DNA of 64,000 bases from positions 12,748,996 through 12,812,995 of the forward strand of contig NC_036457.1 in assembly GCF_002775205.1 (NCBI RefSeq). Reading direction: 5' to 3'. Source of the stretch: Xiphophorus maculatus. Its lineage: Eukaryota; Chordata; Actinopteri; Cyprinodontiformes; Poeciliidae. Shown piece by piece: positions 925-42,261 of the stretch (position 1 is the first letter of the stretch; every line of letters starts with the position of its first letter). The position numbers were made by a program, and so were the translations under genes. Below the pieces are notes generated by a model, which was given only the letters and a program-made list of their open reading frames with translations, was not told where the DNA came from and ran no database searches.

Positions 925-8120
<7,196 letters not shown>

Positions 8121-11697: not shown

Positions 11698-13600
11698 CAG
11701 TGTTGTATAAAGTACTGAAATCTCAGAGTCAAGTAAAAGTACAAGTACCTCTCCAAAATACGACTTTGGTAAAAGTCGAAGTCACTGACTGAAATGTTAC
11801 TTGAGTTAAAGTCTTAAAGTATCTGAAACTTCTTGTACTTAAGTATGGAAATTACTGTAAAAATGGATGTACTCAAGTAATGTAATGAAAAGTACAAGTA
11901 AAAAGTAAAACAAAGCAAATGCGGTTTGAATGACATTTTTTATATTTTGGTAAACTTGTCAAATACACTTAAAATAATGTACACAACCAAGTGCAGGAAA
12001 AATTAAACCTGCTAATAGATATACCTGCAGGCATCATTTAGTTAAGAAAATTAGGTGCTTTACCTATAGCACAAGGTTAACTTAACCTGCTTTACAACTG
12101 AACCAGCTTCTTAGTATACTCTCCAGGACAGAAAATACAAAGTTTTTGTAAGCCTTAAGTTTTCCCTTCAAGTAAGGTCAGTGCTGAAAATGAGAAAAAT
12201 AAATAGTACAGAAAATGCGGCCAACATGAAGAAAAAGATCTGTTACGATTACTCTACTTCACAAATCAGTGAATCAGTCAATGCTACAGTCAGTAGGTGG
12301 TGCACACAACTGGTCATTATGCAAAAGAAAAAAAGAATTGGGAGGGAAATGCAGCTTATTGGCATCTGTAAACCTGGTTTTGAACTTGCATGCCTTTTCT
12401 ATATTCGTTAAATTTAGTCTAAATTGCTATCGCTATGGCTTCTGCCCCCCTTGAACAGAGGAGTCTAGGTAGCCTGCTACAGTCAACATTAGGCCTAAGC
12501 TAAATACACCACGTGTGGAACTGAAACAATGCCAAACAAAGTTCATTTATGGTCAACGTTTCACAATACAGTAGTGCCTAGTGACCAAGCTATAGTTACT
12601 GAAACAGGAGGATTATAACCATTTCATAATTAGTTACCTCGATGTGTTTCTTCAAGTTGGACGGGGAGTTTTTGTAAGATAGAATTTCCATGTGACTGCT
12701 ACTGATTGCGAGACTTGCTTTGTGTTTAATGGGAGAAGCGAAACAGGTGTATCCTAATTAAAAGTAAAGAAATCAAGAAATGGCAAAAAATGTGGAATGA
12801 AGATAAGAAAGGAAGAAGATTATATGAAGTACAAAAGTCAGTTCAAATTCGAAGCATTAATGAAAGAAACAGAAGAGAAGAAATAATAATTAGTAGATTA
12901 AGAGTAGGTCATACCTACTTAAATGACATGCTTTATAAAATAGGGAGGAAAAATAATGATAAATGTGAGAGATGTGGAGAGAAAGAAAATGTAGAACACA
13001 TATTGATGAACTGTAAGTCAAATGAACTCGAAAGGGAAGAATTAAAGAGAATAGTTAGAAATATAGGGCATGAATGGAATCTTAAAGGTATATTAGGAAA
13101 TGAAGGAAACATAACAGATATTCACAAATTAAGGAAAGCCTTGTTTATTTATCTTAAGAATACAAAATTAAAAAATAGAATTTAATAGATGTGAAGTAAT
13201 GCTTCTACACACTCATGTACAGTAGGTGGCGGTATGCACCTTAAAGTTGCTTGTGATCCGCCATAATAGAAAAGAAGAAGAAGAAGGTGTATCCTATTGG
13301 TGGTGATGAACAAGCCCAGGCAAGCAGGCTACGGACTTTGTTCGGTAGCCTGCTTGCTACTTGCTAATCAGTAGGTGGGATCAAAACACTTGCGTTTCTC
13401 TCTCTCGCTTTTTTGTAACGAGTAACTAAACCACACATTGAAAATGTATCGGAGTAAAAGTACGCAATTAAGTTCGGAAATATAGTGAAGTAAAAGTGAA
13501 AGTCATCAAAAATTTTCATACTCCAGGAAAGTATGAAGTACTCCAAAATATACTTAAGTAAAGTAGTGAAGTATTTTTACTTCGTTACTATACAACACTG
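11698..13600. mobile_element. hAT-type non-autonomous element with perfect 8-bp TSD
   Basis: Termini are inverted repeats: CAGTGTTGTATA at 11698-11709 and its complement TATACAACACTG at 13589-13600. The element is flanked by a perfect 8-bp direct duplication, GATTTCAC, at 11690-11697 and 13601-13608. An 8-bp target duplication with CAGTG ends is characteristic of the hAT superfamily. The arms contain repeated AAGTAC-rich motifs. No hAT transposase is present. A LINE fragment is inserted inside (12757-13284), so about 1.37 kb is hAT sequence. Confidence 0.85.
12757..13284 (+). mobile_element. 5'-truncated non-LTR retrotransposon 3' end nested in the hAT element
   Basis: An ORF at 12790-13185 encodes the C-terminal tail of a LINE ORF2, with a zinc-knuckle-like motif CERCGEKENVEHILMNC at about residues 56-72 of that reading. 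It is followed by a 3' UTR with CAGTAGGTGGCGGTATG and a (GAA)n tail at about 13270-13286. The insert is flanked by a 12-bp direct repeat, AGGTGTATCCTA, at 12745-12756 and 13285-13296, as expected for target-primed insertion. The start is 5' truncated. The 3' end and tail suggest an I-clade element; clade assignment is tentative. Confidence 0.8.
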
Positions 13601-19597: not shown

Positions 19598-20446
19598 TTA
19601 TAGCTTTTTCAAACTCTTTGACTCGAGGCTTGTAACATCGTCTTGGCCATGTATCTCAGTCTCAGAATCTTCAATATCAGCAAAAGCACCATCCTCCGAC
19701 TCAGCTCTCTCTTTCATCAAAGCATCAAGAGGGATTAGTAATGTTTTCTTGGCAGTTTTCTTAGTTGCATCTAAACTCCCCAGCTTGTCTGCAACAAAAG
19801 GCTTCTCTCCATCAGCAGTGTCTTCTCCAGGATCTGAGTCTTCCTCAGCTTCGTCTTCTCCATCAGCCGAGTCTCCTAAGCTTCCACTCCAGCCATCAAT
19901 GGCTGTGTCAGTATCTTCATCTTCCTTTTCAGAAACCTTGACACTGTCATTCAAAGCAGCTGTTGTGGCATTTTTGTTTTCAGTAAATTGTGGCTCCTTC
20001 TCTTCTCCAGATTCATCTTCTGCTTTGTCGGCAGATTCTTCACATGCACACTCTTCTTCACACTGATCTTTAGATCTGGATTTTTCTCCACTGTCTCTCT
20101 TTGTAATCTCGCTGCCAATCATTTCTACTTCACTCACATCTTCATGTGTTAGTTTATAATCTTCTTGTCCTTTCGTGACAGCTTCAGAGCAATCTTCACA
20201 TTTGGATTCAGAGTCACTTTCATTTTTGACTGATTCAGATTCTTCAAGAGGTGTTTTATCTTCTTGGCTTTTTTCTTCTTGAAAAACTTCAATGCTCTCT
20301 TCCATTTTTCCTGATGATTCAAGTTCTTTGGCCAATAAAAGTTGTTCAACAGGTTCAGCCTGACTCAAAGACTCACTTTCATCAGTACATTCTTGTGGAG
20401 TTGTATCTACAACCTCATCTTCAGACTCCTCTTCTCCTGACTCATT

Positions 20447-20494
<48 letters not shown>

Positions 20495-23400
20495 TTTAAC
20501 TGTTGATGTGTCCTCCTGACCTGTGGTTTCACGTTTGCCTGCTCTTAAGTTGTTTGCAGACTTTTCGTCATCTATTGCTGAGCTGCTGCCTTCTGCCTCA
20601 GATTCATTTTCACTCACAGCTTTGGAACTTCCTTCGAATGTAGATTCAGGATTAGTCTCTGAGGAAACATCAGACTCTTCACCACCTGATGTTTGCTCTG
20701 ACTCTTTTTCGTTTGCTACATTATAGGCCTTGTTGATTTCATGTTCTGCTTCTGCAGCTGAAGTTTCATCATTTGAAGAGGCATCGTTACCCTCTACAGA
20801 GTCACTCTTGCTTTTGACCATATCTTCCTCTTCAGCATCAGTGGCATCAATACTTTGTTCTTTTAGCTTATCTTCTTTCTCTTCATTTGTCTCATCTTCT
20901 GAGTCAGATCCCTGTCTGCTTGTGGTTTCTTCCACTTCATCCTTACCAGATTCATTTTCAGTTGTATCTGCATCAGTCTCATCTTCTTGGTTGTCTTCAG
21001 CTTCACTTGCGAGACCAAGATCATGTATATGTTTTACTTTATCCGTTTCTTCTTTACAGTCAACCGCTTCTTCCTCTTCTGCTTCTTCAAATTTGTGCAC
21101 ACTTGTACTTTTTACAGTTGCTTCTTGCCCAGTCTGCTCACCTTTTGTCTGATTTTCAGCATATTCAATTGACAGTTCACTACTCATGTCTTCATTCTCC
21201 TCTGCATTGTCGTCGTCATTTGTGGTGCCGTTTATGTCTTCTGCAGAGTCATTCTCACTGGCAGTGCCACTTTCTTCATCGTCAACTGTTTCTACTTCTT
21301 CATTCTCTGTCCTCTCTGCTATAGCTTCCTCTTTAGGAGTCACGACTTTTGATTCACCATTTTGTGCCGGAAAAATCTCTTTATCAGTAGAAATATCATC
21401 TTTGGTGGTTGCTTCTTCATTGTCTTCTTCTGATGATTCATCTTCTGTTGATGAATCCCTGTTTTCATCTACAAACTCATCTGCACTGACAGCGGGAAGC
21501 TTCTCTTCATCTGTGTCGGTTCCTTCTGCTGAATCTTTCTCTGATTTATGCTCACTTAAAGCTGTCTCTGATTCTTCATTTTCATCTTCACTTTTAGTTG
21601 AAGAACCCTTATGAGCCTCTGCATCTGTATCCTCTTGTGGAGTGACCTGCCCTGCTTCCTCACAATCAGATTGATCAGGGCTGGCTGCTATTACAGTTTC
21701 ATCTTCTCCTGTGACTGCAGTTGGTTTTTTAACATCCGTTTCATCTTCTGTTGTTGCGCCCTCGTCTGATTCTCCAGAGGATTCAGCTACGGCTGCTTCA
21801 CTCTCATCAGGAGAGTCATTAGAATTGACTGGAGAAATTGTCTCTTCCTGATCAACTGTGCTGTCCTCCTCAGACTCTTCTCTTTCTGCTGCTTGAACCT
21901 CTGATTCTGCCTCATTGTGTTTTTTTGTGCCTTCATATCCAACTGCAGAGACTTTGTTCTTTTGCAGTTTTGTTTCACTTGTAACAGAAAGCTCATCGCC
22001 AGTTGTTTCTTCCTCTTCTTTACTTGATAATTCATTAATTGTGCCCTCCCTTTCATCTTCACTTTCATCTTCATCGCTGCTGCCACCTGACTCCTCCGCA
22101 GCGTCCTGGTCACTAGTGGTACTGGTACCTTGCCCGACTTCCTCCATGTCATATTTCTGGTTAGTTAAGATTGCCACAGGTGTATGCTCACTCGTGGCTA
22201 CTGAGGATATTTCCATAGCTTGTTTTTCATCTTCCGACAAGGTTGCATTAGATCCCACCTCTAAGAAACTCTCCTCATTCTCTTCTTCGCTGGATTTGAC
22301 ATCAGATGTTTGTGCTACACTAACCTCAACTGCAGGTTCTTTATTTTCAGTCTCGCTACATTCAATCTCTTCTGATGGCTCATTTTCACTTAAGATTATA
22401 GTGTCTTGTACCACATCAGTTTCTGCTTCACTTTCTTCTACTTCTTCTTCTTCAGTCTGATCCTTCACCATTTCATTAATCGTAACTGTATCATTATTCT
22501 TAGCATTCATCATTGATTGTTTCTTATTTTTCATGTGAACAATTATTTGCACTGATGGGAGCAACTCTCTCCTCAACTTTACCCAATCCATTTTTGCATC
22601 CTCCTGGGAAGCTTCCAGTTTGGTTGGCGATGACGCTTCCACTGAAACATCTTTCTCTGTTTCTTCTTTGCTTTGGACTTCAGTATTAGCAAAAGCAACA
22701 GTGTCATCATGTACTTCATTTGCATGGTTAGGAAACTGTTTAGTAGAAGCAGTGATATATTTAACTGGCATTGCCGCAGTTATTTCTTCTTCATCCTCAT
22801 CCTCAGAGACGCTGCTCAACATATCTGTATATTTCTCTGCTGTTTCACTATTTACATTGAATCCACTTTCTCCACCTGGTGTGATTGCATCACCAGTCAC
22901 TTCTTCTGAAGCTGTTTCTTCAGTATGTATGGCTCCACTCTCACTTCCTGGTCTTTCAACGCCTTCTGTGCCTGTCTTCTCCTCATTGTCTGTAGCAAAG
23001 ACCTTAACTGATTCTTCAGTAGTTGTCTGATCGTCTTGGCAGGCATCATCTGCTTCCTTTTCATCTGCTGTAAATTCAAAGGCTTCCTCTCCAACTTGTT
23101 GCGTTTTATTGATTTCTACTTCCTTTATTGCTCCAATAATAACTTTTTCAACAAGTGTTTCCGCTGTCATTGTGTCATCGTCATTTCCACAGGGAGCTGC
23201 ACAATCAACTGCGGTATTCTTCAGCGGAATCCTTTTCAGGTCATAGTCCGTAACAACGAGTGCAGTTCTTCTTACTTCTGCAGAGGGAGGTGGTATGGAA
23301 TTAAGGTTTTGCTCCACACATGTTTCACATGGACAGTATTCATCAATATTTTCACCTCGCTGGTCACTGTATAATGTCCCTGTTGTTGAATCGCTTTTTT

Positions 23401-26400
23401 CACCTTGTGAATCCATTGACTGTTGGAGCTTGAGCTTCACCCCCGGTCTTCTTTCTTCTGTTTGTTTATTTGATGTTCTGGATGTTGCTTCTGTTGGAGG
23501 TCTTGGTAACCCTACTCTGCCTTCAATTTTCCTCACTTCTCTGTCAATGCTTATTTGAATTTTGTTGTGCACCTCAGTTTTGAGTTCTTCTATCATTGTG
23601 TCAAGCTGATCGGTATCTCCGAGGCTCCATCGAACTTTTAACTCTTTCATTGCGCTGATATAATGTGTCATAAACTGCTTCTCTATTTTATTTAGCAAAG
23701 TTAGCACCCAAACGGGATCAGAATCTTGAGATAATTTCTTGGAGAGTTTTTCATCATTACTGCTGGATTCTCCAGAACTTTTGTTTGAGGACGATGGTGT
23801 TTCAGGTGGTTCTCTTGGACTATCATTACTTCTTATCGTTTCATCTGTGGCTGGATCCTCCTCTTCTTGGTTTACTTCTTCTATTTCTGGTTTCCACTGG
23901 GCATCTGTTTCATTGTATGTTTTCTCTATTAAACTGTTCTGAGGTTGAGATCCATCAATGTTTACATTGTTACTGTTCTTCACTCCATCACTACTCTTCC
24001 CAGAACCAGTGGATCCACTGTTTACATCCACACCAGAGGATGAGGTGTGATTGTACTCCCCCTCAACAGAATGATGATCGCTAGTATTTTGTAAATGTTC
24101 CTCTTCTGAGGGATTGGAAAGCCAAAGGGACCGAAGAATACTCATTAGCTCCTGATATCTTTCATTCTTTTCATTTGCATTCTTAGGGTCATGGTCTATT
24201 AACTGCAACTTTACAAGGCAATCTAAAAGACCTTGAGCTGAGGTACTTAGCTTACGCCCATATACAGGTGAGATTTCTGGTAAACTGTTGCATCTGTCAA
24301 GCTTAGGGTTTAAAAGTACTTTCATAACTTGTATGGAAGAGTTGAAGCTTGCATCTTCTCTCTGAGTACAGATATTACCTTCAGTTGGTGTCTCTAAGCA
24401 TGTTTGATAGTCATTTTGGACATTGTCCACGCCATTTACTTCTTTTGAATTTTCAGCTTCAGACTCATTCTTCTCAGCTTTCTCTGCTGTATCTGTTTCC
24501 TCAGCTACAACATTGTCTTTTACTCCATCGCTGTTTTCATTAAGTTCTTCCATTTCATAAAGGACTCTCTCTGTTGGTAAGGTTTTAAGCCATTCATTTA
24601 CTACTTCGGTGGGGGATGCATTAGGTAAGATAGATGGAACCAGCTCAAAGTCACCAGCATCATCCTTTTCCTTATGTTTACTGCCTTTACCACTTTTATC
24701 AGAGACAATGTCTGTGACTTCTACTGAACCATTTGCTATCCTGTCAGAAACATAAGATTTAGATCTTCCAGGGGAGGAAGTTTCACAAATATCTTTATCT
24801 GAACAAGACAGGGTTTGTGACAGGTCACTTTCATCTGAGTCTGCATGGCAAATTATTGGATGTTTATTTAGGCAAATGCCTGCATCTTCTTTACCCTGCT
24901 CTCTTGACCTATTGGTCTTAGAACTTCTTTTATCAGCTAGGCCTTCTTTGACTTCTGAAGGAGTCACACTTTCTTCTGTATTCTCAGAAACCACGCTGGC
25001 AGTAGAGACATCTGTTACATTGTTTTTTTTAGATTTAGCAGACATATGTGAGTGTACACTCAAAGAACTTTGTGACTTTCTTGAACTTTTTGATCCATGA
25101 ATCTCTGAGATCCTTGACTTTTTTGAACGCCCTGAAGCCTTGGACTTTGACGACGTGCCAGTAGGGGATCTGTCTTCACTCTCTTCAATTGTTACCGAGG
25201 GCACTTCAGATCTGCTTAGTGCCTCAGATGGATCAGATTTTGCTGATTTTGTTGAAACAGGACTAAAAGCTCTCTCTTCCACATATGTAGAACTTTCTTC
25301 AACTGGGACACAATAATTTTTTGATTTTCGGGATTTTGTTGATGTACGACTCTGTGTTCCCTCAGATTTCTCTGAAGCGTTTCCATCATTGTGGGGGTTG
25401 GATTCTTCCTTAGGAATATCAGGATCTATTAATTTGCTTGATTTTGCTTCTGACTCATTGTCTTCATCCATCCCAGTCTCCTGCCCAGGGGTGATGCAAG
25501 ATCCATTTGACTGTATGGTTCTTGAAGAAGTGTCAGACTTTATTGACAACACACTGTGAGACCTCTGTGACTGATCTTCTGTGGCTTTTTGTGAATGTGA
25601 AGCTTTTGATTTTGTGGAGACAGATGATACATTTGTCTTAAGGGATTTAGCAGAAACAGGACTAAACGTTTTTATCTCAATGTCGTCTGTGTTCTCATCA
25701 GCAACATTTTCAGGAGAAATGGCTAAGATTTCAGAATTATTTGATCCGCCATCTGAATGCCTTGATATTGTTGATTTGATTGATGAATTACTTGGTGGAC
25801 GCTTCATGTCTTCCACACTTATTTCTTCATCTGGTTTATTAGAGATTTGTAACTTAGAAGATTTGGTAGATTTACTGGACTTTGAAGATTTAGCAGATTT
25901 TGCTGACAAAGTGCTGGGAGGTCTTTGTGTTTTTCCTTCTCCATTTGAAGTGCCGTCCACTGAAGTAACGTCAGATGGCGTTGTCACTCTTGATGAAGTT
26001 TTTACATTTGTTGAGATGTTGCTTGATGACCTTTCATTAGTGTTTTCATCATTGAGAGTAGTGTCCGAAACCTGAGAAACAGTTGCTGAAATTCTTGAAA
26101 TGTTTGGTTTTGATGACCTTGTACTTGCAGCTTGCTCAACTGACTCTGTTACTGAGCTAGTAGACATGCAACTCGGTGGTCTCTCAAAGCTCTCTTCTTT
26201 TGAGTTTTTTTTACCTAAATCTCCCCCTGTTGATCTCTTGGATTTTGTTGAAGATTTTGACTTTGCAGATGTGTCAGACACCTGACTTCCTGCTCTCTCT
26301 ACAATGCTGTCACTTTCTGCAACATAATCTTCTGCTGGTACACCATCAGTGTTTGACCCACTAGATTTCACAGACGTTTCTGTCTCTGTGGACAGTGATT

Positions 26401-29400
26401 TTGCCAGTTCAACCGTTAAACTGTGGGATGCAGTCTCTTTTCTTTTTTCATGTTCATCCACTCCATGTTCATTAGCCTGACTAGAGGCTTTAGATCCAAA
26501 GCGTCTTTCAGATACATGGGAGCGACCTGTTTTAACAGATGTACAGCTTTCAGCTCTCTCTTGCATTTTTTCATCACTGTTGTCTCCATTGGGGGTCTCA
26601 ATGCTCTGAGCAGCTGCAACATCAGAGCATCTGGACTTTTTTGAACAACCAGAATCATTTGACTTGGTCACCTGTGATGATGACAAGTTTCCTTCCTCTT
26701 CAATATCCGAAGCAGTAATTTCCTGTTCATGTTCAGAGGGAATGTTAGAAGTTTTTGATTTTGTAGATGTCCCATTAACATTTGACATTGCTGATTTTGC
26801 AGAATTTACTGATAAACTGCTTGCTGGTCTTTCTACCTGATCAAGACCACATACACATTCTTCTGTTGCAGACATTGCACTCTCTGATCTGTCCTGAGAT
26901 GCTTTGTTATCTGTTCTCTCCCCAGTTTGGTTAGTATCAGAAAAAACTCCAGAGCTATTTGACTTTATAGAAATAACTGAATTTGATCGTGTGATGAGCT
27001 CTTGAACTGGATTATCACTTAAACATTTCAACGTGCCTGATCTTGTAGAAATATCTGACATGACAGAATGGATTGACATTGAACTCATTGATCTGCTTTC
27101 ATTGTGCTCTTCTTGACAGTCATCTTCATTATCACTTTTAGCATTTAGCTCACAAGTAACAGCAGAGGCTTTTGATTCCTTGGACACTTTAGAGATGTTT
27201 GATTTTGCTGATGTCACTGACCTGGCAGACATACTGCTCGGATTTCTGTCTACATTTTCCCAATCATCTTCTTCTGTTGGGCTTGTATGTTTTTTTACTT
27301 TGGAAGATTTTGTTGACGTAGCTGACTTTGCAGTTTTAGATGACAGAACACTGTTTGTTCTTTCTTGACTTTCCACAGTTTTGCCAGACATTGCATCAGA
27401 TATATTTGATTTGACAGACTTTGCTGAAGTGTCTGACTTTGCTGATTTTGCAGACAAAGCACTTGTAGGTCTGTTTGCTGACTTGACAGATTTTTCAGAT
27501 ATATGTGAGACGACTGATTTAGCTGAGGTGCTACTTGGTGGTCTTTTGGGATTTTCATGTTCATCATCACACCTTTCACATTCTGATTTTACAGACTGAG
27601 CAGACACCATACTAATAGTGCTTCCTTCACTCTCCCCTTCAACAATTCTTACATCAGAGTTGTCAGCACTGTTCTCCAAATCAACTTCGTAAACTTTTGA
27701 TCTTTTTGATGCATTTGATTTCTCTGATCTCCCTGATTTGACTGACCGGTTACTGGATGATCTCTCTGTGTGTTTCTCACAATCCAGACTTGCTGACTTG
27801 GTTGATTTATCAGAAACTGATGAATTAATTGATTTGACTGACATGCCACTTGTTCTCTCTTCATCTTCACTGCCTACCTCATCAGAAGGGGCAGGTATTT
27901 CAGATGGTACTTCAGAAAAATTTTTTAGGTCTGACATCACTGAAGCGTGTGATTTTTCTGACAAACCACTTGCTGCTCTCTCTTCAGACTTGGTAGAAAT
28001 TTCCGAGACACTTGACTGGATTGAAATTGTTGACGTTCTGCTTGGTGCTCTTTCTATATTTGCCTCTTTGTCATTTTCAATATCTGAATTAAAATTGTCT
28101 GACCTTTTTGCAAGTGGAGTATCAGTAGAACATTTTAATTTAATTGATTTTATAGATGTATTTGATTTAACTGACTGAGGTGATAAAGGTTTGTCTTCAC
28201 TTCCATTGCCTGCAGCTCTTTCTTCAGAATCTGGAGCCTCATTTTCCAAACAGAGTTTGGAAACTTTTAATCTTTTGCTTCCTTTAGAGGCATTTGATTT
28301 TTCTGATCTAACTGACAAATTGCTTGGGGATCTCTCCAATTGTCCATTATCATCGACCATATCATCTCCTCGACTTCCCAGTCCTTTTGATTTGTTTGAT
28401 TTGGCAGAGCTTGTTGACCTTTCAGTTTTGGATGACATCACACTCTCTGCTCTTGCTTGTGCTTCTTCAGTGTTACTTTCATTAGGACACTTTCCTGAAC
28501 AAGCCCCAGTAGTACTAGTTTTTACAGATTTTGCTGACAAAGAACTTGGTGTTCTTCCTGCAGACTTTATTGATATTTCCGACACAGATGACTGGATGGA
28601 TTTGGCTGACATACTACTTGGTGGTCTTTCTTCACCATGCACCATGTGTCTCTCTTCTTCATTGATAAGTCTTCCATCTTCCTCTCCTCTAGCTGAGTGC
28701 ATCGACTTATTTGATTTAGTCGAAACAATCGAGTCAACTGACAGTGGTGACACTGATCTACATTCATTCTCTCCTTCAACAACCCTTTCATTAGGGCAGA
28801 CAACCTCCAAGCAACCTGTATCAACCTTTGACCGTTTAGAAATTGTTGAAATGTTTGATTTTGTTGATTTTTCTGATCTGGCAGACATGTTACTTGCAGC
28901 TCTTTCCACCATTTCACCATTATTAGTTATGTTTTTATGAAGTTCGTCATGTTCTGCTGCCTTAGTAGATTTGGCAGATGTAGTTGACCTTACAGTTTCC
29001 ATTGACTGTGCACTCTGAGCTCTCTGTTCAGTGGCATTTTCACAATGTCTGTTATCAGAAATTTCAACAGATGCACATGACTCAATATCAGAAATGTTTG
29101 ATTTCTCTGATAAAACACTATGTGGTCTTTCTGCAGACTTTACAGACCTCTCAGAAACATGTGACCCTTTGCTTGTTGGTCTTTCCTGAAGCAGCTCTTT
29201 GTCATTTTCTTCACCGGAGCTTTTCTCCTGCCAATCATGGGTAGAACATTTTGATTTTGTAGATTCAATGGAAATAGCTGACTTTGTAGATCCGACTGAA
29301 AGTACACTCGGAGCTCTCTCTGGAATTGCCTCTTCAGTGGTGTCTTCACCAGGCCTTTTGCTTGAACATATGTTGGAAGTATTTGATTTGGTAGATTTAG

Positions 29401-32400
29401 TAGAATTTTTTGATTTTGTGGATGTAGCACTTGCTGGTCTCACTGTTTGTGACTCAACTGATTTGGTTGATGTACAATTTTCTGCTCTGTTTTCAGAATT
29501 TCTTTCCTCACTGTCTTGAAGAAATGACTCAGTGGCATCAGCAGCTTGAGTACAAGTAGAACAGTTTGTTCTACCTGATTTTAAAGAGATATTTGACTTA
29601 ACTGACTGGACCGACATTGAGCTCACTGATCTCCCCTCTTCTTCATTTAATATTCTGTCAGAGGGATTACAACAAACTTCAGAGGCATCCTTCTCTATAC
29701 ATGCTGCAGAAACATGTGATTTTGACGATTGAGCAGATGAGGTTGATATATTGCTTGGAGCTCTTTCTCTTTGTTCAGCATGATCTCCAGAAGTTCCTTC
29801 AACAACAGCATCACTTTGCTTTGACAGATTAGATTTTTCTGAAGCTTTAGAGAAGGTTGATTCGGTTGTCACATTTGATTTTGCTGACATAGCACTAGAT
29901 CCTTGCTGCTCCTCATCTGCCACATTGTCTTTATTCAACTTGTCACTGACTTTCAGGTTACTTGATCTTGCTGAAATGTTTGACTTAATGGATTTATCTG
30001 ACATGCAACTTGATCTCCCCGCAGTAGCATACAGATCATTTCTTTCATCACACAAATGACCAGAGTGAGTTGTTGAAACTTGAGAGGTTTCTGATTTTAA
30101 AGATACGACAGAGGTGTGTGACTGGCCAGATTTTACTGACATGACACTCCCTGCTCTTTCAGTTGTCCCATTATCTCCACAGGAGTTTTGTTCAGTTGTT
30201 ATCACAGATTTTGACCCAGATGATGCTTCTGACGCCACACTTGATGCTCTTGCTTCGGAAGTATCTGGTATTTCTGTAATGTTGCAATAATAATCCTTTG
30301 TTTGATTTAATTTGCTTGATTTTGCAGATATATTTGATTTGACAGACTTTTCAGATTTGACTGACAGCTTGCTTTGTGGTCTCTGTTCATTCTCATCTTC
30401 AGTGTTATCATTTTCGTTGATATCTGCCTTTTTTGTATCATAAAGCTCAGGAGTCTTTGATTCTCTGGATTTTGCTGACAAAGGACTGTTTGCTCTCACA
30501 GATGTCCTGGATGTTGGAGATACTGACTTGAGTATTGACGTCCCAGAAGCAGCAGACATTAAACTTGATCTAGTCCCTCTAGCAACTTGATTGTCTTCTA
30601 GGTTTTCCTCAGTTTTATCTTCTGGAGTCCTTGAACGATTATACTTCCTTGATATTGTACTATTGTCCTTGTTTTCTTCAGCTGTAACCTGATTGTCCTC
30701 CTCCTCTGATTCTTCTTGTACTATATTTTTTAATTCAGCAGACACACTGGATAAAGCTGACAGTGAACTCTGTGTTCTCAGCTCTGAATCATCCTCAGCC
30801 TGTTCTTCCACATCCTCTTCTGGCTGATGTTGTGGCAGTGGTGCCTTTACAGATTTAGTGGACTTAAAGGATTTCACAGATAGACTACTGGACGTTCTCT
30901 CTTTCTTTTCTTTGTCGTCACATGCTTGAAATCCTTCAGTTAAACCATCTGGAACAGCAGAACTGCAGTTTGTTGAGGCATTTGAATTAACTGACATGGC
31001 ACTTTTGGATCCTCTCCCCTCTTCTGAACAGTCGACTTTCTGAATTTCTTCTAATTTATAGGAACTCCAAGCTGCATGTGACTTTACAGACATAGCACTC
31101 GATTCAACTTTTTGCATCTGACCTTCTTCTAAATCTTTGGTTGTATTTTTTTCTTTTGGTTCGATCTGAACTCCTTCGGGTTCTCCGCAGTGGCAGATAT
31201 GAGAAGGTTTTGAAGTTTTTGGCTTGCTACGTTTCTCTGATGTTTTTGATGCTTTATCTTTTGGGACTTGAGATGGATTTGGAAAAGGCAACCCTGAATC
31301 CAACACTTCACTTCCATTAGTCTCTTTTCTGTCAGGGTTGCAAGTTTGGGAAAATGACCCATCATCAACATCGCCTGCACATGTAGCAGATCCAGGTTCT
31401 TCTTCCTCCTTTTGGTTTGATTCATGAGCAGTTTTGAGATCAATGTTCTTTGGAAACTTATATAAACCAGTGGTCTCACCATTTTCCACAGTGGATAGTT
31501 TCACATTGCACTTTGGTGAACACGTCTCCCTCCCTCTCCCTCTGGTGCAAAACTCCACCATTTCAGCTGCCTCAATACTTTCCATAATACATGTCTCCAC
31601 CACTTGGTCTGCAAGCTCTTCACTTGATCTCGACGTGGTTTGTTTTTCAATCACTGTCTTTCTAGAAACCACTGTACGTGAGGATGCACTTGAACTAGAA
31701 GTATGACTACACCGTCTTGCACCATGTGCCCCTGGTAAATTTTTCCATGTCTCATGACCCTGGCAGTGGCTGCAGCTGTAAGGACAGTGAGGTTTCTCCT
31801 TGTGCCCCTGATAGCGCTGTGTGAAATAAGCCTCATCAGCAGACATGATTTCTGATTCTGAACAGTTCACATCGCTAATTTGTGCTAGATTAGGGTCGTT
31901 GTGGGCTTTGATGTGGTCATGGGTTCTCCCTGCTGTCTTTTTTACTGTTGTAGACCAGTGCAACATTTCGTCATTTGGTAGTCTGAAGCACACTTTCATC
32001 TCCATGGATAAACTTCCATCTTTATTAACACGAACCCGTTTTTCTATGTCATCTTCTCTCACACTGTTGCCACTAGGTGGGCAGGAATTAATGAAGTCCG
32101 GAGAGTCTCTTCCATCTGGTACAGATTTGTCAGATGATACTGAGTGCTTGGTGGCTCTCTTGTCATCTCCCAGCTTTGGGAGAATGATACTTGTCTTTGT
32201 GGTGAGTCCTTAATTAATCAAACAGCAGTAGGGAAGAAGCAAATAAAATAATTAGTCCTCTTTTGCATCTGTGGTCATTTACCAAAAGTCAGAGAATTGC
32301 TTGCTTTTGATGGCACAGAATCTAACAGATAATAAAATGAAAATGTGTCTGGCATTGAAGACAATTCTTCGACCTTTAACTTAACTCATATTGGGTCAAA

Positions 32401-34847
32401 AGATTATTCTGTGAACAAACAAAATTGTTTCACTTACTTTCATTTCTGTCAGTGCGTTCTGTGGGACATGACTTCCCACTTAGCTTTGGAAGTTTACAGC
32501 TTGATGTTTTCTCAAAATCCTCCATGACTAATGGGTGAGAAGGCTCCCGTCCCACACAAACGAGAACACCTGGGCACTGCAGAAGGCTCTGTACGCTGTC
32601 AATCTGCAAGAGAAAAGCATTGTTTCATTTTAAACTCAACAGACAACACCAATCCACCAATTAAATTAGGAGCTCCTTATTGTACATGCTGCCCCTGAGG
32701 TGTGTTTAGTAAATTTAAGATGCTATTCCACTTGTTTCCAGATGATATCACAATCTATTTGATCATGAGAATAAAACCCCCAAATTATTAGAAAATTTAA
32801 TGAACTGTAATAAAGACATAAAACCCACACAGAAGTTGCATATGTGCAATTAGGTTGTACTTAAAATGTTAACAATATTCTTTCACCTTTTACTTAATAC
32901 CTAAAATTAGCTTTGAAAACTCAAATTTTCAACACATCTTTTATATTTTGATAACAAATGTCTAGTTTTGCAAGTTAGTAAATTTTAATAATGAAGCTGA
33001 ATGCTTATTTTCTAAAATAAATGGCAAAAAACAAACAAAAAAAAAAACAAGCAGGTTGAAATATTGAATTGTTTTCATTTTGCTCATGTGTATTTGGTTT
33101 TGATGACTTTGCACTTTCAAATTTTAAATCCAGTCTCAGAGAAGGTAGATGAATGGCTTCATCTGTGGTCACACAAAGCCCAGGTGAAGATAATTAATTG
33201 CCACCATGGAAGTCACATTTCTGAAACACCTCTGGTATCAAAGCAGCGAAGTTTCAACATTGACCTGTTTCTCCTCGCTCAAAAATAGCTCTGATTCGAC
33301 AAAGATTAATGGGCTTTTGGGGAGATATTCACAATCTGAATGGCTGTGTGAAGGAATATCCCCATTTCATTCCCTCATACACACACACTAATAATCCCTA
33401 CCCCACTTGACTCATAAAAGCTACTTAGTTCACGTGATAAATAATACCCATGTTTTCTTAAGGCACTGGTGTTATTAATGCCACTTATGCCTATTTTGCC
33501 ACACCAATAACTACCCTCTCTCCTTGTGCATGACATTTTATTTACTAGCATAATTTAAGTAAACACTGTCAACTGGATTGGATTATGCCCATACCAGGGA
33601 AGGATAGTATTTGCTATTTAACAAAGGCTTTGTCTCCAGATTAAGAGCTGTTTTGAATATGTTCCTTAATAGCACAAATTATACTTCAGGGTCAATTCAT
33701 AAGCAGGGGGATTTTTAAAATCCTGTGTTCATGTAATTAGAAGTATTAAACACCTGCTTATTGTGTAATTACTTTCTATATTCTTTAGGAGGAAAATAGT
33801 ACTTAGCTGGATCAAAATATGGTTCTTGTGTAATTTACTGTGAGCTATAATAAGATATTCATCCATTGCCTAAAGTAAGTGAAAGATGTTATGTGATAAT
33901 ATTTCAGGTTATCTTAAGTGTTCAAACTGATCTGAATTCATTGGAGATGTTATTCGTTTTGCTTAATGGCATATTTTGACATATTCACTAAGCCTTAAAA
34001 TATAAAAAGTTACGTAGGATTATAATGATTGACTTGCGTCACTCATGCCTTAACCTGTGGATCTGATTAGCCTGCAGTTTGGATTTGGATCTGTGCTTAT
34101 TCTGTCACTGCAGCTCTTAGCTTCACTCTAGTTTTCAGTCTTTCTCATAAACATGGTTTTAACATTACATATTTTTTTCTGTTATTTTCATGATACCAAA
34201 ACAATGCAAGCAAAATATATTCCTAGCATAACTATGATCATTTGATTTGTTTCTAAACTAAATAAAAGAAAAAACTTTCAACAATAAATTAAAGTAAAAG
34301 AAAACTACAACAAAAGTAAAACTAACTTGGAGTCACCCTATCTAGTTCATCTTACCTTACAGCCCTCTTGAGTGTACAGCTTCCTGATGTGGTACTGCAT
34401 GAGTTCAGAAACCTCTTCCAAGAACAGACCAAAGCTGCGCAGACCCCTACGATGCAATATTATGGTCTTCCTAAATGAAGGGTCGCTGTTTTTCACCAGC
34501 ACAATCTTTTTATTATTTTGGTGATGTAGGTGACAGTCATAGGCTGAGTGAGTCTCTTCATGTCTGCTTGGCCCACTAAGAACATACTGGTGTGGGAGAT
34601 GATGATAATATGGTGGGTGTGCGTGGTAGAAAGGCAACAGCTGGTTCTCTACATCGTCTAACGTGTGCGCGTGTCGACATGCGGAGCAAAGACAGCATTC
34701 CTGATCTAATTCATGATAGGCCCCCATGCCATGCTGCGATATCTTTGGTAGCCGGGTGATGTGATGATCTAAAGGGTGAGAGGACTTGTGAGAGCCTTCT
34801 CCTCCAACTGCATTGAAGCAGTGGAAGTTGCACTTGCGACGGGACAT
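19598..34847 (-). CDS. rp1l1: Rp1l1, retinitis pigmentosa 1-like 1 protein, 3 coding exons, 4,422 aa
   Basis: Doublecortin-family protein of the photoreceptor axoneme and outer segment, by family knowledge. Exons: 34356-34847 (from ATG), 32438-32603, and 19598-32208. GT/AG junctions and phases join to 13,269 nt. The first two exons encode a doublecortin domain (about residues 113-196) with VLVCVGREP near its end. The giant exon opens with DDIEKRV and EMKVCFRLP at about 270-290, the conserved RP1/RP1L1 block after the DCX domains. It then has a Ser/Lys repeat array (about 590-2600), conserved blocks with EVVNEWLKTLP (about 2750) and DPVWVLTLLNKIEK (about 3051), CPCETC near 3176, and an acidic C-terminal third with an Asp run. 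These conserved blocks follow human RP1L1 order. Human RP1L1 has two DCX domains; only the second is seen here. The first in-frame ATG (34847, context GCCAAAATGT) was chosen. The frame is open 35 codons further to a possible acceptor at 34953-34955. Confidence 0.9.
20448..20494. repeat. (ATC)n microsatellite coding a poly-Asp run in rp1l1
   Basis: An uninterrupted (ATC)n run on the plus strand, read on the minus strand as consecutive Asp codons. It places about 16-17 Asp at about residues 4125-4141, within the acidic C-terminal third. It is likely length-polymorphic, but any change by whole units keeps the frame. Confidence 0.9.
25060..31110 (-). repeat. Ser/Lys-rich tandem repeat array inside rp1l1
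   Basis: Protein residues about 590-2600 consist of more than 30 imperfect units of about 40-60 residues. Each has a core such as RPPSSMSAKS, KSxxSxxSxKS or ERAPSxLS, separated by acidic linkers. On the plus strand the same array shows as recurring tttgctgac, gatttgac and tctctc words. The S-x-K-S spacing gives many potential kinase sites. The function of the array is unknown. Confidence 0.85.
32604..34355 (-). other. rp1l1 intron between the two DCX-encoding exons
   Basis: AT-rich, 1,752 nt, bounded by donor gtaagatg (34348-34355) and acceptor ctcttgcag (32604-32612). No repeats of note and no other gene seen. Confidence 0.8.
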
Positions 34848-34952
34848 TTTGGCGTATCGCGACGTTGATGATTGGGCGTGAGATGTCAGAAGAGCAGGAG
34901 AAGGTGGTCGGATAAACTCTGATGGATATTTGACATGGTTTTCACAAGCAGC

Positions 34953-38652: not shown

Positions 38653-38883
38653 TACGGAAGAGGATTAGGGCCACTGAAAAAAAAAAAATTATGGCCCAGA
38701 AAAAAAATAAAATCTCTGAATTTTCATGTAAAAAAAAAAAAAAAAAAAAATTCAGTCCCGAAAAAAAAAATAATAATTCAGTGTCCAAAAGAAAAAAAAA
38801 AAAAGTTCAGTGTCCCGGAAAAAAAAAAAAAAAAAAAATTCTGTGTCCCAGAAAAAAAATAAAATAAAATAAATTCAGAAACC
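38653..38883 (+). repeat. left terminal inverted repeat of the 3.6-kb transposon
   Basis: Homologous in reverse complement to 42033-42261, including the ggattagggccactg terminus, the ttatggcccag block and the phased ttcagtgtcc units. Confidence 0.85.
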
Positions 38884-39149
38884 ACATCTGACTTTTTGCT
38901 AATAAAATGTTACTTTACCCAATACTTTCCTGGTATGGTTTTCAATATGTTGATTAAGCTCATTTTCCATTTGAGCAGGTCTAAAAGCTATAGTCTAAAT
39001 GCATTAAAAGACAATTATCCCTGATAATTACTAAAAATATATAAACTGTTGCATTTGAAGGAAGTCACAAAAACGCTCTAAAAATGTTCTTATGTTTTTT
39101 GGAATTTAGAAAATACAATTTTGCTAATTGTAACTAACTTAGAACAAGA

Positions 39150-39330
39150 AACGTTGGGGTGGTGCGGTGGAAAAGCACAACCCATGTATGGAGGCCTCAG
39201 TCCTGAATGTGGACATCACAGGTTCAAGCCCCGGACTGATGACCTGTGCTGTGTAGCTTCATTACTGGCTTTCCTGTCTGATCACTCTCAAAGGAATAGC
39301 AAAAAAACCTTAAAAAGTAGGAAAGTTTTG
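39150..39330 (+). repeat. tRNA-derived SINE nested in the 3.6-kb transposon
   Basis: Box A-like ggtggtgcggtggaaaagc (39159-39177) and box B-like caggttcaagcccc (39220-39233) lie at tRNA spacing. They are followed by a short unrelated body ending in ctttcctgtctgatc and an A-rich tail. The family was not verified against a library. Confidence 0.65.
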
Positions 39331-40181
39331 TCTTATAACGTCAGACAGTGAGAAAAAAATTACACATGACTTTTTTAATTATTATTTATTTTTTTATTAT
39401 ATATATTTTTTTACATTAATCAACTGCTCATAAATATCTGGTATCAACTCTACTATGTAAACTCTTGGTAAACAAAACAATGAAGTTCATTTGTATTTCA
39501 CAAAGAACTGGTTTTCATGTGTTCAATTTATGACATAATTCTTGCTGTACTGCCATTTTGTTCACATCTCAACCATACATTGTCAATATCTTTCGTTTAA
39601 CATAACAGCATTGTGTTTGAAAAAAAATTATATTTTTCATTAATCATAATGCATACCCATTTAAAAGGATTGATATTTGGTACATAACTGATTATCATAG
39701 AACAATAATTAACTTTGCATCAGCGTTGTTTCTTCAAATGACAGTGTGAAAGCAAAACAAACTATGGATTGGGAAATGAAAACATGTCAACAAAACTGTA
39801 TGTTTTACTTTTATCAGCACAGTAACAGCTTGAAGACTAATGTCAGGTCAAATCAGAACACTACAATAAAATTATGACAGCAATAAACTTTCATGTTCTA
39901 GCAGAATGATGTCGAAAATGTTATGTTTGCTTGCACACAATATGTCTTTAATTAAATGCAGTGCAGGAAGTCCTGTTTAGAGGGCACCTATCAGACATTG
40001 CAAAAACGATCAAATGGCATGATCGAGATAAACAGCAACACTTTTTAAATTATCTTTATGCGCACTGAAGGTGGCTAAATACTTTGAAGAAGAGCTTTTA
40101 TTATTTCTAGTAAACATACCAGCAGATTTGCTTTTAATACTTTTTACAGATTTGCTTTTAATACTTTTTAAAACAAAAACA

Positions 40182-41946
40182 TTACAGTGAACCAGTGAAC
40201 ACTTCTACCTGAATAAGATTAAGAAAGCAGAATTGGATGAGGCTTTTATCCAAAAAGTCTCCTGTAAAGTGACCATCATCCAGAAAGGTTTGAAATAAGT
40301 TCATCCAAAACTGTGCATTCTGTTTGCCGAGGGTCGACCACCAGCCTTCTATGCGCTGGTTGGATGTACTACTTCCGTAAAGGAAACTTTTGTCCCCTGC
40401 AAAACTGTCTGTGTGGTTTTGCCGCAGAAATATCTGCATTTGTTCAATACAAATGTTTTCTGTGCCTCTGTCGGCACGTATCCTCTCTGGACATCCGTTG
40501 ACGCATGAAACTGTTTTCAAATAGTAACTTGCAATCAATTTGGGGTCATTGTTCGAGGTATAAGCCTCCATCCATAAAACATGTCGGCTAAAACCATCTA
40601 TACAGCCACTGATAGCAATGCCATAAGGTTTTAGTTTATCGTAGCCAGAGTGCATTTGGTCCTCTGCAATTGTACTGACGTCTTCTCAACCGTCGTGCTC
40701 GTCTCAGTTCCACACCTTCTGGGTCAAACAATTTGATCAAATGTCTCACAGTGTCTTGTGACACCACAATCCATGTTGAACCGCACGAAGATGTAGCCAC
40801 CGATAACCTTGCATTTGTCCATTAGTCATTATTTGTTGTTTGATAAAGGCCAGCACTTCTTCAAGGTCGGACTGATTCTTTCTTCTAAACAGCCCAAGTC
40901 TTCTGCAAATTCTTCTGTCAATCTGCACACAAACAGATGAGAAAGGACAATTATTTACTCTGCACATCAACATTAAAGTTACCTTTTAGATTGAACCCTT
41001 AGGTCCCTGCTTAAAACGATTTACTGTTTTGGGGAGAATTACAATAACAGCAGCAGTAAATGTTCAATCCTCTATTTTACCAAAAAAGGAAGGACTGGAT
41101 TTTTTAGCATGTAAGTATAAAAACACAGATTCATAAATATACAGTCCGTTTAAGGTAAAAGGTATCATGCATCAAAACACACAAGGAAATATTGTTACAG
41201 TTCCATTTTTATTACAAAAATTAAACATCACATTAACTTTGATTTAGTTAAACAAAGCCTACCATTTCCACACCTGTGCGATAAATGTGCTGATAGTTTA
41301 GTTCAGGGATTGAGATGTAATTTCAGTCCTGAACTGACACATCACATTGCAAGAAAATGATTTTGTGATTCTCATAATGTAACTTTTTCCAACGCAGTAA
41401 CACAAACATATGATATACATAAGATAAAATAGCACAGATATGCACATTAGTTGGTGTTGGTGAAGAGATCCTACGATCAGATCTACAGCCAGCCGCAGAT
41501 CGGTGCAAGTCATACATTTTCCTTTTAAATATTTGCATATATAAACGTTTGTGTCACTTTATACTATAGTTTCTGTCCTCCACTGAACTAAAAGTTACAC
41601 AATTTAACACAGCGGGCATCTTATTTAGAAGGTGGCTGACATTCAGCTAACCTTAGTTTCATTGTAAAACATTCAAACAGAACAATAAAATAAAGGCACC
41701 AAACATATACGGGACAATTCCAGCAATCACCAGCTGTTACATCCTTTATTCATCTGTGTGATTTAACATTGTAAATCAGCTTATTGCTATAACCGCGTGA
41801 GCTAACAAACATGCTAACTACTAGCCATAACCGTTGGGCTATAGACACCAAACTATCTCATTTGATTTACTCACCTTTTGTTCTTCCATTAGTGCAATAG
41901 AGGCTTCGGGGACTCTGGCACGTAAAAAGTGACTTAAATCAGACAT
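40182..41946 (-). pseudogene. broken integrase-core (DDE/rve-like) transposase of the 3.6-kb element
   Basis: Three coding pieces in order: a 24-codon start at 41875-41946, ending MEEQK before a gtgagt donor; a segment resuming at 40922 after a cag acceptor (IDRRICRRLGLFRRKN) and reading to about 40780; and the catalytic part at 40182-40655, with GYDKLKPYG, CIDGFSRHV, CPERIRADRGTEN and SNQRIEGWW motifs. The last part is typical of the rve-like transposases common in fish and invertebrate genomes. Two frame disruptions, near 40778 and near 40635, separate the pieces, so the copy is inactive. The putative intron is 952 nt. Confidence 0.75.
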
Positions 41947-42032
41947 CTTTCTCCAAAACGTCAGCTGTCCGCCACAACTCGCGTCTGTCTGTGGTTCTGA
42001 AGCTGGTTGCTTGCTGGCGCCCATCTGTCAGA

Positions 42033-42261
42033 ATTGTGGTTTCTGAATTTTTTTTTTTTTTTTTTTTTTCGGGACACTGAATTTTTTTTTTTTTCCGGGA
42101 CATTGAATTTTTTTTTTTTTTTTCGGGACACTGAATTTTTTTTTTTTTTTTTTTCGGGACACTGAAATTTTTTTTTGTTTGTTTTACATCAGAATTCAGA
42201 GATTTATTTTTTTTCTGGGCCATAATTTTTTTTTTTTCAGTGGCCCTAATCCTCTTCCGTA
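42033..42261 (-). repeat. right terminal inverted repeat of the 3.6-kb transposon
   Basis: Reverse complement of 38653-38883. Contains four cgggacactgaattt-type units separated by T runs of about 10-20 nt. Confidence 0.85.

Follow-up and report, generated by a model that had tools for sequence, protein, structure and literature searches.

Blocks of diverged tandem units are described for the A-band super-repeats of titin, where, in the part of the account cited here, domains at comparable positions are more alike across blocks than within them, a likeness that is strong among the central blocks but slight at either end (PMC10665226). RP1L1 is associated with the axoneme in the outer segment of photoreceptors, and its human repeat is described in the cited excerpt as a polymorphic 16-residue sequence, present as 28 repeats and rich in Gln, Gly and above all Glu (PMC12206149). 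The zebrafish gene rp1l1b is described as nearly double the size that rp1l1 genes have elsewhere and as missing their defining features (PMC7600334). Lastly, casein kinase 1 is known to phosphorylate poly-SxxS runs in sequence once they have been primed, and in PER2 the lysine three residues before the priming serine matters (PMC12709424).

Here, we analyse 64,000 nucleotides of Xiphophorus maculatus DNA (the window), whose minus strand carries a giant coding exon with a long serine-ladder array (Table 1). We interpret the array, with a probability of about 0.85, as a protein-coding higher-order tandem repeat, in which a block made up of five units that had by then diverged was copied inside the giant exon of an RP1L1-like gene. 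As in the titin A-band, groups of diverged tandem units would have been copied as blocks; unlike titin, whose units are folded Ig and FnIII domains spread over many exons, the units here are predicted disordered ladders within one exon. No folded domain was seen as the unit in an AlphaFold2 model built from a four-row alignment (mean pLDDT 48.1, pTM 0.11), a shallow alignment that itself depresses confidence, and the array is predicted to be disordered, as such pLDDT values would lead one to expect. The human RP1L1 repeat of the excerpt cited above likewise is a repetitive stretch in the coding part of a gene of the same family, but the unit of the window is a diverged Ser/Lys sequence of about 40 residues.

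Table 1. Positions of the features in the window; the last row lies on a second contig of the same genome, and copies and classes refer to the five-unit block.
Feature	Position	Strand	Basis
ORF with CxxC...H...C motif	12730-13185	+	sequence motif
Giant coding exon, one open frame of 4203 aa	19598-32209	-	stop-to-stop ORF
Serine-ladder array (aa 360-2440)	24890-31132	-	22.5% Ser, Ser-Ser spacing in multiples of three
Copy 5 (partial), B5	26990-27094	-	best partner, class profiles, trees
Copy 5 (partial), A5	27095-27247	-	best partner, class profiles
Copy 4, E4	27248-27361	-	lag test units, best partner, trees
Copy 4, D4 (weak)	27362-27472	-	lag test units, class profiles
Copy 4, C4	27473-27544	-	lag test units, best partner, trees
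Copy 4, B4 (short, no class fits well)	27545-27625	-	best partner, class profiles, trees
Copy 4, A4	27626-27763	-	lag test units, best partner, trees
Copy 3, E slot, C-like unit	27764-27853	-	best partner, class profiles, trees
Copy 3, D3 (weak)	27854-27979	-	lag test units, class profiles
Copy 3, C3	27980-28051	-	lag test units, best partner, trees
Copy 3, B3	28052-28195	-	lag test units, best partner, trees
Copy 3, A3	28196-28333	-	lag test units, best partner, trees
Copy 2, E2	28334-28453	-	lag test units, best partner, trees
Copy 2, D2 (weak)	28454-28555	-	lag test units, class profiles
Copy 2, C2	28556-28627	-	lag test units, best partner, trees
Copy 2, B2 (weak)	28628-28759	-	lag test units, best partner
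Copy 2, A2	28760-28903	-	lag test units, best partner, trees
Copy 1, E1	28904-29023	-	best partner, copies 2-4 profiles
Copy 1, D1	29024-29128	-	copies 2-4 profiles
Copy 1, C1	29129-29182	-	class profiles
Copy 1, B1 (E0, A1 missing before it)	29183-29317	-	copies 2-4 profiles (B 27.0, E 25.4)
Copy 0, D0	29318-29440	-	class profiles; copy 0 stretch matches A2-D2 in genome search
Copy 0, C0 (short, hand-split before test, at aa 908)	29441-29488	-	copies 2-4 profiles
Copy 0, B0	29489-29632	-	profiles trained on copies 2-4 only
Copy 0, A0	29633-29764	-	best class A, all-member profiles (aa 28.4, nt 27.1 bits)
Small exon completing DCX	within 32430-32624 (ORF bounds)	-	joined-exon DCX match; C24 identity
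Upstream exon, first part of DCX	34347-34952 (ORF bounds)	-	Pfam DCX E 3.3e-5
Paralogous giant exon	C24:9424500-9434400, internal 1237-5514	+	shorter serine-ladder array, AGY head signature

The giant exon had no match in Pfam (E up to 0.1) or, by sequence, in the PDB (E up to 0.01). The two exons upstream of it, joined at the inferred splice site, encode one DCX domain (E 3.6e-12), directly upstream of the giant coding exon as in RP1 and RP1L1. Those two proteins carry DCX domains in tandem, and no second DCX was found in the joined exons at E up to 1; a tblastn search with rp1-like exons extended into the first-DCX region (in 34347-34952, minus strand) as a degenerate alignment only. This region is rich in His and Cys and resembles a decayed first DCX, with only the second DCX recognisable. 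An exon break inside DCX (at about profile position 40-41) is common to the window gene and to the three relatives described below, and as it is also found in other DCX genes of the genome it is not diagnostic of RP1/RP1L1.

A search of the genome (704 Mb, 101 contigs) with the exon protein gave, besides the window itself, three matches with E up to 0.01, on contigs C24, C21 and C6. The C24 gene is the closest, with an exon 3 that is 64% identical over 45 aa and a large exon that matches that of the window at 35% over 329 positions (E 2.6e-28) and at 45% over 98 (E 1e-7). The C21 and C6 genes match the window exon more weakly (1.2e-4 and 1.6e-4). Each of the three relatives has two DCX matches, the first of C24 being partial; we read the C24 gene as RP1L1-like and the C21 and C6 genes as RP1-like, which is our own reading and not an annotation. 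From these sequence matches, and with a large exon akin to that of an RP1L1-like gene, the window gene is placed in the RP1 family, closest to the RP1L1-like paralogue. The preliminary description had named the gene Rp1l1, which holds for the family and the nearest paralogue but not for the domain content: with one detectable DCX only, we call it RP1L1-like and not a full RP1/RP1L1 member. The window also contains a tyrosine kinase gene and a SOX17/18-type HMG gene, candidates for BLK and SOX7, which neighbour RP1L1 at human 8p23. The SOX, kinase and PINX1-like ORFs of the window found no match at E 1e-3 in seven pieces of the C24 flanks (about 40 kb upstream and 30 kb downstream), and a whole-genome-duplication origin of the paralogues is therefore not demonstrated. 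The window gene is probably the teleost copy once called rp1l1b; it fits the description of zebrafish rp1l1b (PMC7600334), orthology being drawn from that description only, and the C24 paralogue with its two DCX matches would fit rp1l1a.

Downstream of the array, the C-terminal part of the giant exon (19601-24889, minus strand; aa 2441-4203) is acidic, with 27.6% Asp+Glu, and is reminiscent of the Glu-rich human RP1L1 repeat region. A TCA tandem repeat of 17.7 copies at 20442-20494, possibly variable in length, gives an aspartate run in this acidic tail. Elsewhere in the window, long A-rich inverted repeats occupy 38653-42261, one 59-nt pair being 100% complementary, and flank an ORF at 40182-40685 (minus strand); the region is possibly a mobile element, and the ORF is reminiscent of an integrase core. 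The plus-strand ORF at 12730-13185, with its CxxC...H...C motif, resembles the end of a non-LTR retrotransposon reverse transcriptase.

The units of the array are serine ladders, with a serine at each third residue. Ser-Ser pairs at spacing +3 number 253 against 104.7 in local shuffles (z 18.9), and spacings of +3, +6, +9, +12 and +15 are enriched while all others up to 14 are depleted; Ser/Thr ladders of at least 19 residues number 21 against 0.24 in shuffles. The first 22 residues, the ladder heads, are net basic in 36 of the 42 units into which we cut the array, and every linker of at least 8 residues is net acidic (36/36). The ladders also carry a codon signature. AGY encodes the head serine in 36 of the array's 39 R-x-x-S-x-x-S motifs and TCN the next serine in all 39 (AGY 0), against AGY in 65 of the 429 other array serines (heads versus others, p 2e-23). 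Further along the ladder, at positions 10, 13, 16, 19 and 22, TCN accounts for 32/32, 35/35, 28/28, 21/22 and 20/21 of the codons where Ser is present. The C24 array shares the signature: with the loose motif 11 of 17 heads are AGY, compared with 65 of 246 other serines (p 0.0017), and with the stricter motif R-x-x-S-x-[LM]-S, which was picked after the data were seen, 7/8 heads are AGY in C24 and 23/24 in the window exon. The giant exons on C21 and C6 hold 2 and 4 loose motifs and 1 and 2 short ladders, respectively, and a serine spacing of three is not clear there (as judged without a shuffle control). Serine has two codon sets, and a switch between them requires a two-base change, as stated in the excerpt of PMC6872785. 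Common descent of the units best explains the codon pattern, and most simply read, the units of the two genes would descend from one ancestral unit, with Ser rarely lost at these positions since. The serine-ladder units with their AGY head and TCN next codon are new here; among the literature matches listed we found no description of a serine ladder or a higher-order repeat in fish RP1L1, which does not prove its absence.

For the analysis of unit order, the array was cut at its R-x-x-S-x-x-S heads, some boundaries being set by eye or by hand, and 22 units (aa 924-1740) were taken as the core. All 22-unit tests (lags, partners, identity, leave-one-out, codons and trees) had the unit at aa 860-923 unsplit and the unit at aa 924, later found to be D-like, in the A slot of copy 1. 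Of 11 unit lags in this core only 5 and 10 are enriched, both in DNA (z 4.9, permutation p 0.0005 each) and in protein (p 0.002 and 0.001). Over all 42 units, lags 5 and 10 again reach p 0.0005 each in DNA, with lag 9 at p 0.02, and in protein lag 10 gives p 0.02 and lag 5 is not significant (p 0.096). A period of four units, as first proposed, is ruled out, since lag 4 is not enriched (nt p 0.95): the order A-B-C-D is right, but a fifth unit, E, stands between D and the next A, and the period is five units. The positions proposed for the units have fared better, all eleven (four A, four B and three C) falling on, or within about 12 nt of, corresponding units.

A lag scan that makes no use of segmentation (aa 360-2500) agrees with this period. 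Its strongest lags are 190, 192, 361, 383 and 169 residues (570, 576, 1083, 1149 and 507 nt), and the peaks at 570/576, 1083/1092 and 1149 nt exceed 20 synonymous shuffles. An autocorrelation at 175-190 residues had been foreseen, and lags of 190 and 192 are indeed the strongest, with 80 matches at lags 180-194, where 20 synonymous-codon shuffles gave 15.4 on average and never more than 34. Successive A units lie 570, 570 and 516 nt apart, in line with the expected 520-570 nt. In addition, 443 windows have at least 28/42 matching bases, where 20 such shuffles averaged 76 and reached 104 at most; the excess is largest at 165-194 and 360-389 residues. Part of the excess over synonymous shuffles reflects unit-level descent, because the shuffle also breaks the serine codon pattern. 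That a low-complexity Ser/Lys sequence should have produced this pattern by chance is scarcely credible. Off-register units do share 40% of their residues, so that any two look alike, but the whole-unit permutation preserves composition and, in the 22-unit core, still singles out lags 5 and 10 alone (p 0.0005), and the AGY/TCN pattern is unrelated to protein composition. Tandem Repeats Finder, whose longest period is 500, did not list the array.

Units fall into classes by their position in the block. The best partner lies in the own class for 15 of 22 units, in DNA and in protein alike, against 3.6 expected and maxima of 13 (nt) and 12 (aa) in 5000 label shuffles, and leave-one-out class calls are correct for 16/22 (aa) and 14/22 (nt). 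The full-unit nucleotide tree needs 8 class changes and a tree of unit heads 7, where shuffled labels need at least 10 (2000 shuffles for full units, p 0.0005); the amino acid tree is weaker (11 changes, p 0.03). Labelled by copy number, the full-unit nucleotide tree gives p 0.96, that is, units do not group by copy. This grouping by class (p 0.0005 in the nucleotide tree) upholds the earlier proposal of block duplication, here of a segment of roughly 550 bp, after the units had diversified. The classes are not equally firm: A, C and E are clear and B and D weak, and in the DNA trees B2, B4 and D2 are placed within the C and A groups. The expectation that A would group with A, B with B and C with C is thus borne out for A and C but not for B, the weakest, where B4 stands outside the groups formed by B1, B3 and B5 in the full-unit DNA tree and by B2, B3 and B5 in that of unit heads. 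Nor is every slot held by a fixed class, as had been supposed; A, C and E do cluster, but one E slot holds a C-like unit and B4 fits no class well. Same-position units are more alike than neighbours, as in titin, clearly for A, C and E and weakly for B and D.

If the five classes had separate roles, such as position-specific docking or phosphorylation sites, the super-repeat would be a functional register, which is how the cited part of PMC10665226 reads the titin super-repeats. A, C and E are in keeping with such roles, being still recognisable at 51-57% DNA identity between copies. We nevertheless regard this reading as improbable: the B and D classes are hardly kept, block lengths range from 138 to 190 aa with units missing, and a C-like unit occupies one E slot. 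We infer instead that the five-unit order mainly records how the array grew and needs no function of its own.

Three complete A-B-C-D-E copies are present (27248-28903). Copy 1 is without A (28904-29317) and is preceded by copy 0, an A-B-C-D copy (29318-29764), and after copy 4 a partial A-B follows (26990-27247). The repeat had been placed at 27040-28920; it is found there, but its extent is greater, the block pattern running upstream to about 29764. When eight upstream units (aa 816-1102) were scored with profiles from copies 2-4, the first was close to a tie between A, C and D, and the others read B-C-D-B-C-D-E (ordered path p 0.003; p 0.009 for all 13 upstream units). The near tie concerns A0 (12.2, 12.2 and 12.0 for A, C and D), B1 scores higher for E and A than for B by DNA alone, and B5 ties between B and E with the same copies 2-4 profiles. 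The unit at aa 924 (29318-29440) was rejected as A1, being D-like by profiles. We claim no register upstream of aa 816, where the first five units alone score best as E, E, E, E and A. In the downstream direction no significant register emerges (p 0.12 over eleven units, 0.08 over fifteen), and an extension of copy 5 past A-B and into a copy 6 is suggestive with mixed pair tests. A genome search with copies 1-4, which scores best candidates only, returned, apart from the query, just the copy 0 stretch (29327-29785), which aligned to A2-D2 (E 7e-4).

Alternatively, single units could have been duplicated at random, with no copying of blocks, and the fixed order sorted by selection for function. 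Whole-block tests with unit order permuted reach p <= 0.05 in only 1/21 copy pairs in DNA, where block alignment is mostly uninformative as local alignments seem confined to single units. Identical codons in register, beyond shared protein sequence, are 0.561 against 0.509 (Fisher p 0.015, permutation p 0.085), a weak excess for the five-unit register. Both results, and a ladder that is common to the units and looks constrained, speak for single-unit duplication. In protein, however, 11/21 copy pairs reach p <= 0.05, and the order of copies 2-4 beats whole-unit permutation (pairs at p 0.005, 0.005 and 0.025). Moreover, linkers outside the ladder match in register too (aa 1001 with 1378, for instance, or 1136 with 1515), and it is implausible that five classes should converge on one order in block after block. 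We therefore hold random single-unit duplication to be very unlikely and retain duplication of the five-unit block.

The array thus shows three periods, with the unit order seen in the core and upstream of it, and from these we infer the sequence of events. First, a step of about 9 bp, or three residues, would have built the ladder S-x-x-S-x-K-S. Dozens of copies would then have been made of a single ancestral unit, some 40 residues long and consisting of a basic ladder, with R-x-x-S at its head, and an acidic linker. A block of five units that had diverged, A-B-C-D-E, would in turn have been copied to give about five blocks. After block copying, small deletions, the replacement of one E unit and long divergence would account for the present array. 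Identity between block copies amounts to 51-57% in DNA and 34-45% in protein (counting the aa 924 unit in copy 1), and the DNA figure suggests that the duplications are probably old and not recent. Copies 2 (28334-28903) and 4 (27248-27763) are the most alike pair (45% against 40% aa; block score 254 against 200 and 199) though copy 3 lies between them, a likeness for which simple adjacent copying does not account. The ladder unit is common to both paralogues, and a significant five-unit period is found in the window gene only; in C24, lag 5 gave p 0.086 and lag 6 p 0.019 (eight lags, 16 hand-cut units), from which we make no claim. Therefore, either the block was copied after the window gene and C24 split, or it has been lost or blurred in C24. 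The five-unit super-repeat of this array is genuine, and it is a new instance of a known growth mode of repeat proteins.

As to function, the array contains runs of serines spaced by three, as do the casein kinase 1 targets PER2 FASP and TAp63alpha, and, as in FASP, a basic residue lies three before the first serine; unlike those single short clusters, as the cited excerpt describes them, the window holds dozens of ladders, known from sequence alone (PMC12709424). We tentatively propose, at somewhat less than even odds, that the array is a disordered, phosphorylation-tunable spacer on photoreceptor axonemal microtubules, a proposal drawn from motif resemblance only. Priming would occur at each R-x-x-S and casein kinase 1-type relay phosphorylation at each S-x-x-S step, and stepwise phosphorylation of the ladders would alter the charge of a long spacer on the axonemal microtubules. 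A lysine directly precedes many of the ladder serines, which is not what casein kinase 1 obviously prefers. A more elaborate form of the idea, which we consider unlikely, would make the array a giant phospho-ladder: the five classes would form a code that recurs along the axoneme, with a separate kinase or partner reading each class, the number of blocks would determine how long a photoreceptor structure is or how it is spaced, and the AGY/TCN pattern would have been kept since before the rp1l1 copies split.

Protein similarity alone cannot separate descent from convergence in low-complexity repeats, and the AGY/TCN pattern offers a simple test for their common descent. A strict three-residue serine ladder with a fixed codon class in two paralogues suggests that these serines are held by selection. 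RP1L1 and its partner RP1 are retinal disease genes, and to our knowledge their large disordered parts have no assigned function. Relay phosphorylation would be a concrete, testable idea for these disordered parts of RP1L1 and RP1.
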